This document shows positions 7,497 to 10,848 of a stretch of 64,000 nucleotides of DNA, one piece after another. The stretch is from Luteitalea pratensis (GTDB lineage: Bacteria > Acidobacteriota > Vicinamibacteria > Vicinamibacterales > Vicinamibacteraceae): positions 717,001 through 781,000 of the forward strand of contig NZ_CP015136.1 of assembly GCF_001618865.1 (NCBI RefSeq). Reading direction: 5' to 3'. Made by a program: the position numbers and the translations under genes. The first letter of the stretch is position 1. Every line of letters starts with the position of its first letter. The notes below the pieces were generated by a model that did no database searches, had not been told where the DNA came from, and saw nothing but the letters and a program-made list of their open reading frames with translations.

Positions 7497-8354
7497 ATGA
7501 CGCCCCGAGAGGAACAGCTCCGCGCCGAGATCTGCGAAGTCGGCCGGCGTGTATACGCGCGCGGCTACGTGGCGTCCAACGACGGCAACATCAGCGCCCG
7601 GCTCGACGACCTGTACGTCCTCGCCACGCCCAAGAACGTCTCCAAGGGGTTCATGACCCCCGACATGATGGTGGTCACCGACATGCAGGGCCGCAAGGTG
7701 GCCGGCCATCGCGACGCGTCCACCGAGCTCAAGATGCACCTGGCGGTCTACGAAATGCGCCCGGACATCCGCGCCGTGGTGCACGCGCATCCGCCACTAT
7801 CGACAGGCTTCGCCGTTGCCGGTGTGCCGCTGAACAAGTCCTCGCTCGCCGAGATCATCTTCTCGCTGGGCAGCGTGCCGATCGCCGAGTACGCGACGCC
7901 GTCCACACAGGAACTGCCCGACGCCGTGAAGAGGTACATCAGCGCCCACGATGGCCTGCTGCTGGCCAACCACGGCGCGCTCACGGCCGGCCAGGACCTG
8001 ATGAACGCGTACTTCAAGATGGAGACGATGGAGCATTTCGCGCAGATCACGTTGGTCGCGCGACAGCTCGGGGGCGAGAACCTCATTTCCCGCGAGGAAG
8101 TGAACCGGCTCCAGGGCCTGCGGGACTTCTACGGCATCAAGTCGCCGGCCCCCATCTGCACCGACCCGGAACTGGCCGAGGGCGCCGGTACGACGTGCCA
8201 GTTCGTCGACGCACCCGCCTCCGACGGACCCCGCATCGTGCCGCCCATGGGCACGCTGCCGGGGGGCGCCGAGGGCGGGGAAATTCGGCTAACATACCGC
8301 GAGCTTGCGGCCCTCATTGCCGACGCGGTGCGTCAGGTGACACGCGACGCCTGA
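7497..8354 (+). CDS. Class II aldolase (FucA-like), probable microcompartment cargo
   Basis: Zinc aldolase of the L-fuculose-1-phosphate/rhamnulose-1-phosphate type that would release lactaldehyde and DHAP. Residues E77, H96, H98 and H159 each sit four positions after the E. coli FucA residues E73, H92, H94 and H155. At 285 residues it is about 70 longer than FucA. The extension consists of a Pro/Gly-rich linker (about 239-262) and a terminal amphipathic helix, [15 protein letters not shown], that looks like an encapsulation peptide. It is followed at once by BMC shell genes. Aldolases of this kind are core enzymes of planctomycete/verrucomicrobial fucose-rhamnose compartments. The exact sugar phosphate is not certain. 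Confidence 0.9.
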
Positions 8355-8427
8355 TCGCGTGAGCCATATGTCCAGACCCGCGCGGGCAGGCCGCGCAAGC
8401 CGGCGCGAGGCGCCAGGTGATCCGTTT

Positions 8428-8715
8428 ATGGGTGAAGCACTCGGAATGATCGAGACCAAAGGTCTCGTGGCGATGATCGAGGCTGCTGACGCGATGGTGA
8501 AGGCCGCCAAGGTCACCCTCGTCGGCTGGGAGAAGATTGGCGCGGGCTACGTCACGGCCATCGTCCGTGGCGACGTCGCGGCGGTGAAGGCCGCCACCGA
8601 TGCCGGTGCCGCCGCCGCTCGCCGTGTCGGCGAGCTCGTGTCGGTGCACGTCATCCCGCGTCCGCACAGCAATCTCGAAGACGTCCTGCCCATCGGCAAG
8701 GCCGCCGGGAAATGA
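8428..8715 (+). CDS. BMC-H hexameric shell protein
   Basis: 95 residues, a single BMC domain (Pfam BMC type) that forms hexagonal tiles of a microcompartment shell. It opens with [20 protein letters not shown] and has the central-pore segment KIGAGYV, followed by [13 protein letters not shown] and the strand VHVIPRPH, all as in PduA/EutM-type proteins. The ATG at 8428 is chosen because it gives the canonical start; an upstream ATG at 8359 would add an Arg-rich tail. A GGTGAT stretch nearby may serve as SD. Its last four bases overlap the next gene (ATGA). Confidence 0.95.
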
Positions 8716-8978
8716 TCCTCGGCAGGGTCGTCGGCACCGTCGTGGCGACCCGCAAGGACGAACGGCTGCTGAGCGCCAAGCTCCTCGTCGTTCGCCCCGT
8801 CTCCCCCGAGGGACAGCTCGAAGGCACGCCGCTCGTCGCCGTGGACACCGTCGACGCCGGGACCGGGGAAATGGTCCTGGTCGTCTCCGGCAGCTCGGCG
8901 CGCATGGCCGACGGCCTCGGGCAGTCGCCCGTCGATGCGGCCATCGTCGGCATCGTCGACACCGTGTCGATGTCCTGA
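8712..8978 (+). CDS. BMC-P pentameric shell protein (EutN/CcmL family), copy 1
   Basis: 88 residues, forming the vertex pentamer of a microcompartment. It shows the EutN/CcmL pattern: [16 protein letters not shown] at the start, LLVVRPV, a [10 protein letters not shown] turn, and the closing [12 protein letters not shown]. The ATGA overlap with the BMC-H gene indicates coupled translation. It is the first of three tandem paralogues that differ at about half their positions, so they likely form distinct pentamers or a mixed one. Confidence 0.95.
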
Positions 8979-8994
8979 TCGCGAGTTCCCCACC

Positions 8995-9264
8995 ATGCAC
9001 CTGGCCCGCGTCGTCGGCACCGTCGTCTGTACACACAAGGACGCGCGGTTGTCCGGCGTCACGCTGCTGATCGTCCAGCCGGTCGGGCGCGACGGCAGCG
9101 ACGTCGGACGCGCGCTCGTGGCCACCGATGCGGCTGGTGCAGGCGTGGGCGAGCGCGTGTTCTTCGTCCGCGGGCGTGAGGCCGCCTTTCCCTTTCATCC
9201 GGTCGAGGTCCCGACCGACGCGAGCATTGTCGGCATCGTGGACCACACGGACGTGGTCGACTGA
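8995..9264 (+). CDS. BMC-P pentameric shell protein (EutN/CcmL family), copy 2
   Basis: 89 residues. ARVVGTVVCTHKDARL, LLIVQPV, AGAGVGERVFFV and ASIVGIVD mark the EutN/CcmL fold. It differs from its neighbours by a segment with FPFHPVEVP before the last strand. The ATG at 8995 is preferred since it gives the family start and sits 16 bases after the previous stop. The middle position in a three-gene BMC-P cluster matches the three BMC-P genes reported for planctomycete-type loci. Confidence 0.93.
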   Translation: MHLARVVGTVVCTHKDARLSGVTLLIVQPVGRDGSDVGRALVATDAAGAGVGERVFFVRGREAAFPFHPVEVPTDASIVGIVDHTDVVD

Positions 9265-9265
9265 C

Positions 9266-9547
9266 GTGCAGGTCGGCACCATCATCGGCACCGTCGTCTC
9301 CACGCAGAAGCACGCCAAGCTGCACGGCGCGAAGCTGCTGCTGGTGCAGCCGGAACTGCCCGACGGCACCCCGAAGGGGACGGTCGTGCTCGCCATCGAC
9401 AGCGTCGGCGCCGGTGTCGGTGAACGCGTGCTGTTCGTGATCGAGGGCAAGGCCGCGGGCGACGCGCTCGGCCGCAAGGGGGCCCCAGTCGACGCGGCCA
9501 TCATCGGTATCGTCGACGCCCTCCAGAAGACCGAGGAGGTGTGGTGA
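9266..9547 (+). CDS. BMC-P pentameric shell protein (EutN/CcmL family), copy 3
   Basis: 93 residues. The GTG start one base after the preceding stop gives MQVGTIIGTVVSTQKHAKL, the EutN/CcmL N-terminus. LLLVQPELPDG, VGAGVGERVLFV and VDAAIIGIVD follow. It has a slightly longer acidic tail (TEEVW). Its stop TGA overlaps the ATG of the next gene by one base, so the downstream small protein is very likely part of the same operon. Confidence 0.93.
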   Translation: MQVGTIIGTVVSTQKHAKLHGAKLLLVQPELPDGTPKGTVVLAIDSVGAGVGERVLFVIEGKAAGDALGRKGAPVDAAIIGIVDALQKTEEVW

Positions 9548-9834
9548 TGCAGGACGACGAGCTGCGCCTGCTGGTCCGCGACGCCATCGCCCGTCACCTG
9601 GGTTCCGATGGTAGGGACGGCTCTCCGAGCCGTCCATCTCCACATCCAGGCTCTCCGAGCCGTCCATCTCCATATCCAGGCCGTCCATGCCCGCAGGACA
9701 CGATGTCCTGGAAAGCGCACCTGTCGCACGGCCGCTTCGTGTTCCTGGCCCCGACTGAACCAGATGCCCCGTGCGTGGTCGAACCCGAGGTGCGCTGTCA
9801 CCACTGCGGGTTCTGCCAGTCGTACGGCCACTGA
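9547..9834 (+). CDS. Small Cys-rich protein of the BMC operon with a repeat-derived linker
   Basis: 95 residues, no family recognised. Three parts are visible. Residues 3-18 form an amphipathic helix (DELRLLVRDAIARHL) like the aldolase tail, suggesting an encapsulation peptide. Residues 19-50 are a Ser/Pro/Gly/Arg linker with a 10-residue unit repeated twice (GSPSRPSPHP, GSPSRPSPYP), encoded by a GGTAGGG hairpin element plus a 30-bp tandem duplication. The C-terminal part has C76, C84, C87, C90 in a C-x7-C-x2-C-x2-C pattern ending QSYGH, which could hold zinc or an iron-sulfur cluster. The start overlaps the BMC-P stop, which argues for a real gene. Function unknown. Confidence 0.7.
   Translation: MQDDELRLLVRDAIARHLGSDGRDGSPSRPSPHPGSPSRPSPYPGRPCPQDTMSWKAHLSHGRFVFLAPTEPDAPCVVEPEVRCHHCGFCQSYGH
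9609..9690. repeat. GGTAGGG hairpin element and 30-bp tandem repeat inside a gene
   Basis: 9609-9635 matches the GGTAGGG hairpin family, identical over 27 bases to the opposite-strand copy at 6433-6459. From 9619 a 30-bp unit (GGCTCTCCGAGCCGTCCATC and 10 more bases) is repeated at 9649 with one mismatch. A third, broken copy follows near 9679. The length is a multiple of three within the frame, so the host gene stays open. Confidence 0.85.
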
Positions 9835-9852
9835 AGGACCTGCCCCAACGCC

Positions 9853-10848
9853 ATGTCGACCTCACAGCGCCCGCGCGTCTTCGTCTCGCGCCGATTGTTC
9901 CAGGAAACGCTCGACCTGATCGCGCAGCATGCCGACATGGACGTCTTCGATCGGAGCGGCAGCCCGTCGTCCGAGGAACTCGTCGCCCGGACTACGGGAT
10001 GTGCCGGGCTGATCGCGCAGGGCACCGACAAGGTCGACGCCCAGTTCCTCGATCAGCTCCCCGATCTGCGCGTGGTGTGCAACGTCGCCGTGGGCTACAA
10101 CAACATCGACGTCGCGGCCGCCCGCGAGCGCAAGATCGTCGTGACCAACACGCCGGACGTGCTCAATGAAGCCTGCGCGGCACTGACATGGGGCCTCATC
10201 CTCGGCGTCACGCGGCGTCTCGGCGAAGGCGAGCGCATCCTCCGCGCCGGGAAGTGGAAGGGATTCCAGCTCGATTTCCTGCTTGGCATGGATCTCGTCG
10301 GCAAGACGATCGGCGTGATCGGCATGGGGCGCATCGGCCAGGCCGTCGCGGCCAAGGCCGCGGCCTTCGGGATGCGCACGGTGTACATGAAGTCACCGCG
10401 GCGGCCGGACGAACAGATCGTCGGCCCCGACGGCGTGCCGTACGAAGGCCTCTCGTTCGAGGAGGTGATGCAGCGTTCCGACGTCATCACCCTGCACGTG
10501 CCGCTCTCCCCGCAGACGCACCATCTCGTCAACCGGGACAGCATCCGGCTGATGAAGCCGACGGCGTACCTGGTCAACATGGCGCGCGGTCCGGTGGTCG
10601 AGGAGGCAGCCGTCGTCTCAGCACTCGAGAATGGCTGGATCGCCGGCGCCGCCCTCGATGTGTATGAACTCGAACCGGTCGTGCACCCGGGTCTGATGAA
10701 GTTCGACAGTGCGTTCCTCATTCCCCACCTGGGCAGCGCGACCCGCGAGACCCGCACCGCCATGTGCAACCTCGCTGCGCGCAACCTGATCGAGGTGCTC
10801 GGGGGCCGGCCGCCGGTCACGGCGATACCGGGGTCGTATATTCCGTGA
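9853..10848 (+). CDS. D-isomer 2-hydroxyacid dehydrogenase (glyoxylate/hydroxypyruvate reductase-like)
   Basis: NAD(P)H-dependent enzyme reducing a 2-oxoacid to a D-2-hydroxyacid. 331 residues. The Rossmann motif GMGRIG lies at about 156-161. The catalytic triad is visible: Arg in MARGPVVEE, Glu in the DVYELEP region and His in IPHLGSAT. It begins 18 bases after the small Cys protein and is therefore probably the last gene of the BMC operon. It could serve the lactaldehyde/lactate branch or recycle NADH, but no encapsulation peptide is seen at either end. Substrate is not determined. Confidence 0.88.
   Translation: MSTSQRPRVFVSRRLFQETLDLIAQHADMDVFDRSGSPSSEELVARTTGCAGLIAQGTDKVDAQFLDQLPDLRVVCNVAVGYNNIDVAAARERKIVVTNTPDVLNEACAALTWGLILGVTRRLGEGERILRAGKWKGFQLDFLLGMDLVGKTIGVIGMGRIGQAVAAKAAAFGMRTVYMKSPRRPDEQIVGPDGVPYEGLSFEEVMQRSDVITLHVPLSPQTHHLVNRDSIRLMKPTAYLVNMARGPVVEEAAVVSALENGWIAGAALDVYELEPVVHPGLMKFDSAFLIPHLGSATRETRTAMCNLAARNLIEVLGGRPPVTAIPGSYIP

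Follow-up and report, generated by a model that had tools for sequence, protein, structure and literature searches.

Which kind of bacterial microcompartment (BMC) does Luteitalea pratensis encode at a compact run of shell and enzyme genes, which proteins enter it, and what does it consume? We analysed a window of 64,000 nt (NZ_CP015136.1, bases 717001-781000, of a genome that is a single contig of 7,480,314 bases). Within it, at 7497-10848 on the + strand, seven genes point one way with overlaps or short gaps between them, in the order aldolase, BMC-H, BMC-P1, BMC-P2, BMC-P3, small cysteine protein and D-2-hydroxyacid dehydrogenase (ald-bmcH-P1-P2-P3-cys-had). The original prediction had recognised a microcompartment locus here, and rightly: all seven genes that it listed are present, with Pfam matches for each except the small cysteine protein, and the letters it gave for the end of the aldolase and the start of the small protein read as it said. 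The locus is real and well conserved, and of a type already catalogued; it is very likely the main locus of an ACI-type microcompartment (a metabolosome) with a tagged aldolase, and with the small cysteine protein as likely second cargo. The features are as follows, with the evidence for each in brackets.

7497..8354, + strand: class II aldolase, the signature cargo enzyme of the ACI type (PF00596, E 4.7e-47)
8289..8351, + strand: C-terminal tail of the aldolase, residues 265-285, very probably an encapsulation peptide, behind a Gly/Pro linker (BMC-linked conservation, hydrophobic moment, AlphaFold2 model)
8428..8715, + strand: BMC-H shell hexamer (PF00936, E 2.7e-30; EutM model 145 bits, cut-off 133); this start was picked by comparison with relatives, and translation may instead begin further upstream, at the GTG of 8359
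8712..8978, + strand: BMC-P 1, shell pentamer, overlapping BMC-H by 4 bases (PF03319, E 7.4e-31)
8995..9264, + strand: BMC-P 2 (PF03319, E 3.4e-27)
9266..9547, + strand: BMC-P 3, with a GTG start (PF03319, E 6.4e-27)
9541..9834, + strand: small four-cysteine protein with an N-terminal helix like an encapsulation peptide, a hypervariable linker and a chain-ending C-x7-C-x2-C-x2-C-x4-H module (conservation in relatives, AlphaFold2 model); the start is GTG 9541 or, alternatively, ATG 9547
9547..9603, + strand: the encapsulation-peptide-like helix at the N-terminus of the small protein, MQDDELRLLVRDAIARHLG (hhalign, comparison with known tags, AlphaFold2 helix)
9619..9661, + strand: dispersed palindromic repeat GGCTCTCCGAGCC in the linker of the small protein, two copies at 9619 and 9649 (sequence copies)
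9853..10848, + strand: D-2-hydroxyacid dehydrogenase, glyoxylate-reductase-like (PF02826, E 2.1e-54, and PF00389; best chain 6bii, a glyoxylate reductase)

Assignment of the locus to the ACI type

In the available part of the catalogue of Sutter et al. (2021; PMC8217296), the ACI type comprises a class II aldolase with a C-terminal encapsulation peptide, a hydroxyacid dehydrogenase, a BMC-P triplet and at least one BMC-H, together with several proteins of unknown function and an aldehyde dehydrogenase (AldDH) that lies consistently on a satellite locus. That part counts 125 members, all in Acidobacteria, and its account of the type mentions no BMC-T. The present locus holds a PF00596 aldolase with a C-terminal tail of this kind, a dehydrogenase of pfam00389/02826, the BMC-P triplet and at least one BMC-H, and the genome carries the AldDH on a satellite. 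Among 63 loci of relatives, 58 come from records titled Acidobacteria or its subgroups, and the other five from metagenome-assembled genomes titled Acidimicrobiia (four) or Cyanobacteria (one). Since the gene-content features that we tested are all present, we file the locus as a member of the known ACI type; among the features compared, no difference in gene content from the published account was seen, and the present analysis adds to that account the whole-genome inventory and the small four-cysteine protein as a possible second tagged protein. The same source describes the ACI AldDH as phylogenetically similar only to that of MIC3, and the BMC-P proteins as belonging to the gray and orange clades plus one more; our assignment is by gene content.

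To complete the inventory, the whole genome was searched with Pfam models at E 0.001. Three PF00936 genes were found, one in the locus and two elsewhere, and because their open frames span only 99-124 codons, the genome has no match of BMC-T size. No BMC-P gene (PF03319) was detected beyond the three of the locus and no PduL (PF06130) at all, and a single AckA gene lies elsewhere. Six PF00171 genes were found, none of them in the window; one stands directly behind a second BMC-H, and the two form a satellite locus about 3.5 Mb from the main one. The genome-wide check that had been proposed for BMC-T, AldDH, PduL and AckA thus yields a satellite AldDH and one AckA, and neither of the other two. 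The observation that the window itself lacks a BMC-T and an AldDH was correct, but the conclusion drawn from it, that the locus is either incomplete or of an unusual type, was not: an AldDH and extra BMC-H genes on satellites, and no BMC-T, are how the ACI type is described in the part of the catalogue cited above, and the reading as an incomplete locus was dropped.

The microcompartment of Planctomycetes and Verrucomicrobia (PVM) likewise has a class II aldolase as its signature enzyme. Its main locus carries the phosphotransacylase PduL and an AldDH, whereas here PduL was not found in the genome and the AldDH is absent from the main locus; the PVM dehydrogenase is of the lactate/malate type, and the one here is a D-2-hydroxyacid dehydrogenase.

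The satellite AldDH (L008, 5803-7656) has 617 residues, 5j78 as its best solved relative, and its closest curated model in acetylating acetaldehyde dehydrogenase (572.5 bits, below the cut-off of 620.1). It adjoins the satellite BMC-H in all 12 genomes whose satellites were fetched, this one included. At its C-terminus stands a conserved module similar to FVCEEDVRQA..GRKI.IGERTIVTPAARDLGE, also seen in 12 of 12. The helical amphipathicity of the AldDH extension was not above that of shuffles. The third BMC-H of the genome (L007, 7224-7511) sits behind a gene like D-threonine aldolase/BhcC (6093-7211; 153.9 bits against a cut-off of 690). Enzymes of this class can release small aldehydes. Such a gene adjoins BMC-H in four of the ten AldDH-less satellites examined (L007, L132, L136 and L141), too few to build on, and it was dropped as a functional clue.

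For synteny, 37 stretches were fetched around matches to the small protein in the same taxonomic order as the window. All seven genes stand in order in 25 of them, and the rest are truncated where a contig stops or have an incomplete gene set; counted singly, the small protein occurs in 35, the aldolase in 33 and the dehydrogenase in 27. One stretch, fetched from a weak match (L081), has none of the seven. Of the 63 loci in named genomes, 39 show the exact order and 6 more hold all seven genes, with overlapping open reading frames listed out of order. These counts are not independent, because the sets of relatives overlap and several contigs with G handles are the same records as L152-L214. 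Most stretches also share flanking genes, identified by Pfam as pdxJ, a TPR protein and, in fewer, a YHS protein; two further shared neighbours are presumably glmM-like and nth-like. From the common flanks and gene order, the locus looks vertically inherited.

The aldolase tail and the small four-cysteine protein

The original prediction had proposed that the C-terminal tail of the aldolase is a cargo tag. Taking 325 bits or more as the ACI level for aldolases, which 38 genomes reach, we found the tail motif at the end of 34 of 34 ACI aldolases, the window's included. Twenty more distant aldolases from other Acidobacteria all adjoin at least one BMC shell gene and all have a related tail, although the BMC link of one (L126) rests on a weak BMC-P match and the tail of another (L131) is the most divergent. 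As a control, 19 still more distant aldolases were compared, a twentieth stretch being contained in one of theirs. The tail was present in all five that have BMC genes. The other 14, whose flanks hold no BMC gene over 4.5-5.2 kb in each direction, lack it and end near the aldolase core. All 14 belong to a single family (f19), two of them have identical ends, and the check for BMC genes covered the neighbourhood of each locus, so that the control amounts to one or a few evolutionary comparisons rather than 14. An AlphaFold2 model places a helix at residues 267-284 behind a linker (246-262) whose predicted local distance difference test (pLDDT) score is under 50, and the hydrophobic moment of the tail, 0.662, was reached by only 0.2% of shuffles. 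The tail thus has the form expected of an encapsulation peptide, a terminal amphipathic helix of 15-20 residues behind a flexible linker. From its distribution and predicted structure, the tail is very probably a packaging tag, a well-supported reading; BMC-less homologues bearing the same tail, which would have spoken against it, did not appear among the 14. For the ACI type, this C-terminal peptide is already published (PMC8217296, in the part available).

Conservation within the aldolase was examined in 55 sequences (the window and 54 loci of named genomes). The invariant positions include E77, H96, H98 and H159, which, by analogy with FucA and DrdA, are likely acid-base and metal residues. 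Also invariant are I263, L265, T266, Y267 and L270 of the tail region, as well as C221 and C234 in the linker (window 8157-8198). Several distant BMC-linked aldolases (L114-L122) carry CxxC motifs in their linkers, for example RCQACGY, which is faintly like the RCxHCGYC of the small protein. The aldolase reaches no cut-off among the curated NCBIfam families; the best curated name, 3-oxo-tetronate 4-phosphate decarboxylase, was rejected at 137.5 bits against 250.

The small protein of the window has no Pfam or NCBIfam match. Its relatives share an N-terminal helix (consensus MTExELRxLVRxAIARHLG) and a C-terminal module in which four cysteines are invariant and the final Gly-His nearly so; the linker between the two differs among them both in length and in sequence. 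In 55 small proteins (numbered from 9541), R9, R13, C78, E81, C86, C89, G90, C92, G96 and H97 are invariant. AlphaFold2 predicts a helix at 5-21, in a block with pLDDT 86-87, and little else. A search of 396 genomes of the phylum gave 64 with a match at E 0.01; those outside the window's order are weak, many with stops. In the order itself, an ACI aldolase is accompanied by the small protein in 37 of 38 genomes. A scan with the peptide pattern CG[YF]C[QKR][SC][YHL]GH matched 83 stretches, of which 63 are relatives; 60 of these 63 loci hold BMC shell genes, and the other three (L201, L205, L208) start no more than about 100 bases from where a contig ends. Because the pattern was derived from the family itself, the scan locates close relatives and is no proof that the motif is absent elsewhere. 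Weak small-protein matches also came from L128 and L129, two loci in the same class. In four loci of family f31, a longer protein behind BMC-P3 ends in KxCSxxPxGKPCDHCAMCxxRGF and is a possible divergent homologue.

The small protein most likely enters the compartment as a second cargo through its N-terminal helix, to judge from the conservation of that helix, its prediction, and its likeness to the aldolase tail and to proven tags. When 76 aldolase tails (a set that leaves out four core segments of BMC-less aldolases, which are not real tails) were aligned by hhalign with 66 small-protein N-termini, the probability was 75% and E 2.6e-5; the score was equalled by 1 of 300 column shuffles and was nearly unchanged without sequences of the own genus. 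The tags of PduP, EutC and PduD, taken from the part of PMC5405515 available, fit both profiles in register. With the small-protein profile, their scores were reached by 0, 2 and 13 of 1000 shuffles, respectively, and with the aldolase-tail profile by 16, 3 and 0. The Pdu/Eut peptides are terminal helices of the same length, about 18 residues; they differ from the aldolase tag, which is C-terminal.

Several observations, in addition to the narrow control described above, weigh against this picture. A strict position matrix built from 32 aldolase tails ranked at least 12 of the window's 495 open reading frames above the small protein, although only 81 of 20000 shuffles of its N-terminus scored as high; the matrix was therefore dropped as proof of one motif in both tails. 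The hydrophobic moment of the small-protein helix is 0.174, a value reached by 76% of shuffles, and thus helical amphipathicity lends the putative tag no support: of the features of an encapsulation peptide, the predicted helix and the variable linker are present, and a moment above shuffles is not. Family support for metal binding is limited to weak Fer4_2 matches in 2 of 55 members (best E 0.045). The dehydrogenase was found in just 27 of the 37 fetched stretches. In one ACI genome, G077 (L258, 4133-5486), the complete set of shell genes and a tailed aldolase are present, and the dehydrogenase comes straight after BMC-P3 without the small protein between them; this genome lost, or never had, the protein and is a natural test of the need for it. 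The resemblance that had been noted between the two tails exceeds chance but is modest. The proposal of a tag on the small protein draws support from the conservation of the helix and its prediction, from the profile match and from the resemblance to the Pdu/Eut tags, and none from the hydrophobic moment; both tails are predicted to be helical, and of the two only that of the aldolase has a moment above chance.

A different role for the small protein was also considered, namely that of a shell-bound adaptor or assembly factor whose helix bridges aldolase and shell, without being cargo. The protein is short and has no enzyme-sized domain, it stands between BMC-P3 and the dehydrogenase in all 25 seven-gene stretches, and its linker is variable, all of which would suit such a factor. 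The invariant four-cysteine module, on the other hand, suggests a chemical role, and G077 does without the protein. We regard an adaptor as somewhat unlikely and continue with the small protein as second cargo.

Proposed working of the compartment and its substrate

In the scheme that we infer, the shell would be built from the one BMC-H and three BMC-P proteins of the locus, probably with the BMC-H paralogues from the two satellites. The C-terminal amphipathic helix of the aldolase would bring the enzyme into the lumen, where it would cleave a phosphorylated sugar to dihydroxyacetone phosphate (DHAP) and an aldehyde; within the shell, the satellite CoA-acylating AldDH would convert this aldehyde to an acyl-CoA. 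The small protein, most likely the second cargo, may bring a metal-binding module (Zn or Fe-S) to the lumen. No encapsulation-peptide-like extension was seen at either end of the dehydrogenase, which probably works on the released acid outside the shell, or recycles NAD.

The substrate of the ACI type, which occurs in soil Acidobacteria, is not established in the available part of its published description. The structural comparison gave two best matches to the aldolase model, DrdA (6btd) and FucA (7x78), both with Z 25.6, and because they are tied, structure does not choose the substrate. We weighed two routes by gene content, searching for MtnA, MtnD, PF00596 and PF06134 in 37 of the 38 ACI genomes (G253 was left out) and in four relatives without ACI.

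One candidate is a compartmentalised DHAP shunt, in which nucleoside phosphorylases and MtnA would supply 5-deoxyribulose-1-phosphate, methylthioribulose-1-phosphate or ribulose-1-phosphate for cleavage by the encapsulated aldolase. We hold this to be unlikely as it stands, and with equal reserve we give its products as DHAP plus acetaldehyde, methylthioacetaldehyde or glycolaldehyde, respectively. The pair of genes that marks such a shunt, an MtnA-type isomerase and a class II aldolase, is present, with the aldolase below every curated cut-off. MtnA (TIGR00512) occurs in 37 of 37 ACI genomes, over the cut-off in 36 and truncated in G151, and the acireductone dioxygenase MtnD (PF03079) exceeds its cut-off in just four, each time beside a second PF00596 gene, as expected for ordinary methionine salvage; in 21 of the 37 the BMC aldolase is the sole PF00596 protein. 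Over 19 MtnA contexts (L236-L254, L256), the neighbourhood includes a purine nucleoside phosphorylase 17 times, a pyrimidine nucleoside phosphorylase 14 times, a NupC-like transporter 11 times and a cytidine deaminase 10 times. (The gene adjoining MtnA is tsaD in 19 of 19, mostly within a pynP-nupC-pnp-cdd-mtnA-tsaD cluster.) Taken together, this pattern of MtnA, MtnD and sole aldolases and the nucleoside clusters suggest that the BMC aldolase receives the MtnA product, at least where a genome has no MtnD, and comparative genomics hints, short of proof, at ketose-1-phosphates made from nucleosides via MtnA. The likeness of the AldDH to acetylating acetaldehyde dehydrogenase also favours the shunt, as does the tie of DrdA for best structural match; DrdA, of 5-deoxyribose salvage, prefers acetaldehyde according to the part of PMC6079011 available. 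It has the same fold at 30% identity, and the aldolase here differs by its tail and the two invariant linker cysteines C221 and C234. The E. coli shunt is described in PMC10986504, and the ribulose-1-phosphate version resembles the end of a haloarchaeal route to glycolaldehyde (PMC9700705), both as far as the available parts of these papers go. Against the shunt, the genome of the window is itself one of the four with MtnD and an adjoining second aldolase-family gene (it has three PF00596 genes in all), and because of these two genes the MtnA product there has an ordinary fate. MtnA and the BMC locus are unlinked; a relative that lacks ACI (G237) carries MtnA in the same nupC-pynP-pnp-cdd-mtnA cluster, and another (G213) has both MtnA and MtnD. 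Moreover, the glycolaldehyde version would also explain the glyoxylate-reductase-like dehydrogenase, which fits that version only, whereas the AldDH looks to be of the acetaldehyde type.

The other candidate is a PVM-like fucose/rhamnose compartment, in which L-fuculose- or L-rhamnulose-1-phosphate would be converted to lactaldehyde, lactyl-CoA and lactate. The aldolase is of the same family, FucA is among its nearest solved structures, and Sutter et al. (2021; PMC8217296), in the part available, propose carbohydrate degradation from the parallel with PVM and GRM5. These points are set against the lack of PduL in the genome, the failure of the aldolase to reach any NCBIfam fuculose or rhamnulose aldolase cut-off, and a D-specific dehydrogenase, which by established knowledge does not fit L-lactate. 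L-rhamnose isomerase (PF06134), the one of the two sugar isomerases that the search covered, with L-fucose isomerase outside it, gave no full-length match in the 41 genomes (37 of them ACI), and a 27-position fragment in G054. Rhamnose is accordingly an unlikely substrate, and we think the fucose/rhamnose compartment as a whole quite improbable.

Carried to its end, the nucleoside route would make ACI an organelle for nucleoside waste (5'-deoxyadenosine, methylthioadenosine or ribonucleosides, converted by phosphorylases and MtnA to ketose-1-phosphates), with a toxic aldehyde released inside the shell by the tagged aldolase and the tagged four-cysteine protein, which has so far turned up with these loci only, as a redox or metal centre of the lumen; we advance this with little confidence. 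Our literature search found no paper that joins a microcompartment with 5-deoxyribose or with Luteitalea, and one that mentions a microcompartment together with methylthioribose, which calls that gene unrelated. As far as the literature searched goes, which did not cover the supplement of the catalogue, the aldolase tag is the published part, and the case for a second encapsulation-peptide-like tag, on a locus-linked four-cysteine protein, and the nucleoside/MtnA hypothesis are new. The conserved four-cysteine protein with its helix offers a second handle on the function of the lumen, and the pattern of MtnA, MtnD and sole aldolases narrows the substrate question to a short list for enzyme assays.

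A palindromic repeat in the linkers

Besides its two copies in the small-protein linker, the palindrome GGCTCTCCGAGCC recurs exactly at 6349, 6437 and 25600 of the window. A near copy of the repeat and its flanks sits in the linker of the satellite AldDH (L008). Disordered linkers, in both proteins, apparently tolerate such repeats.

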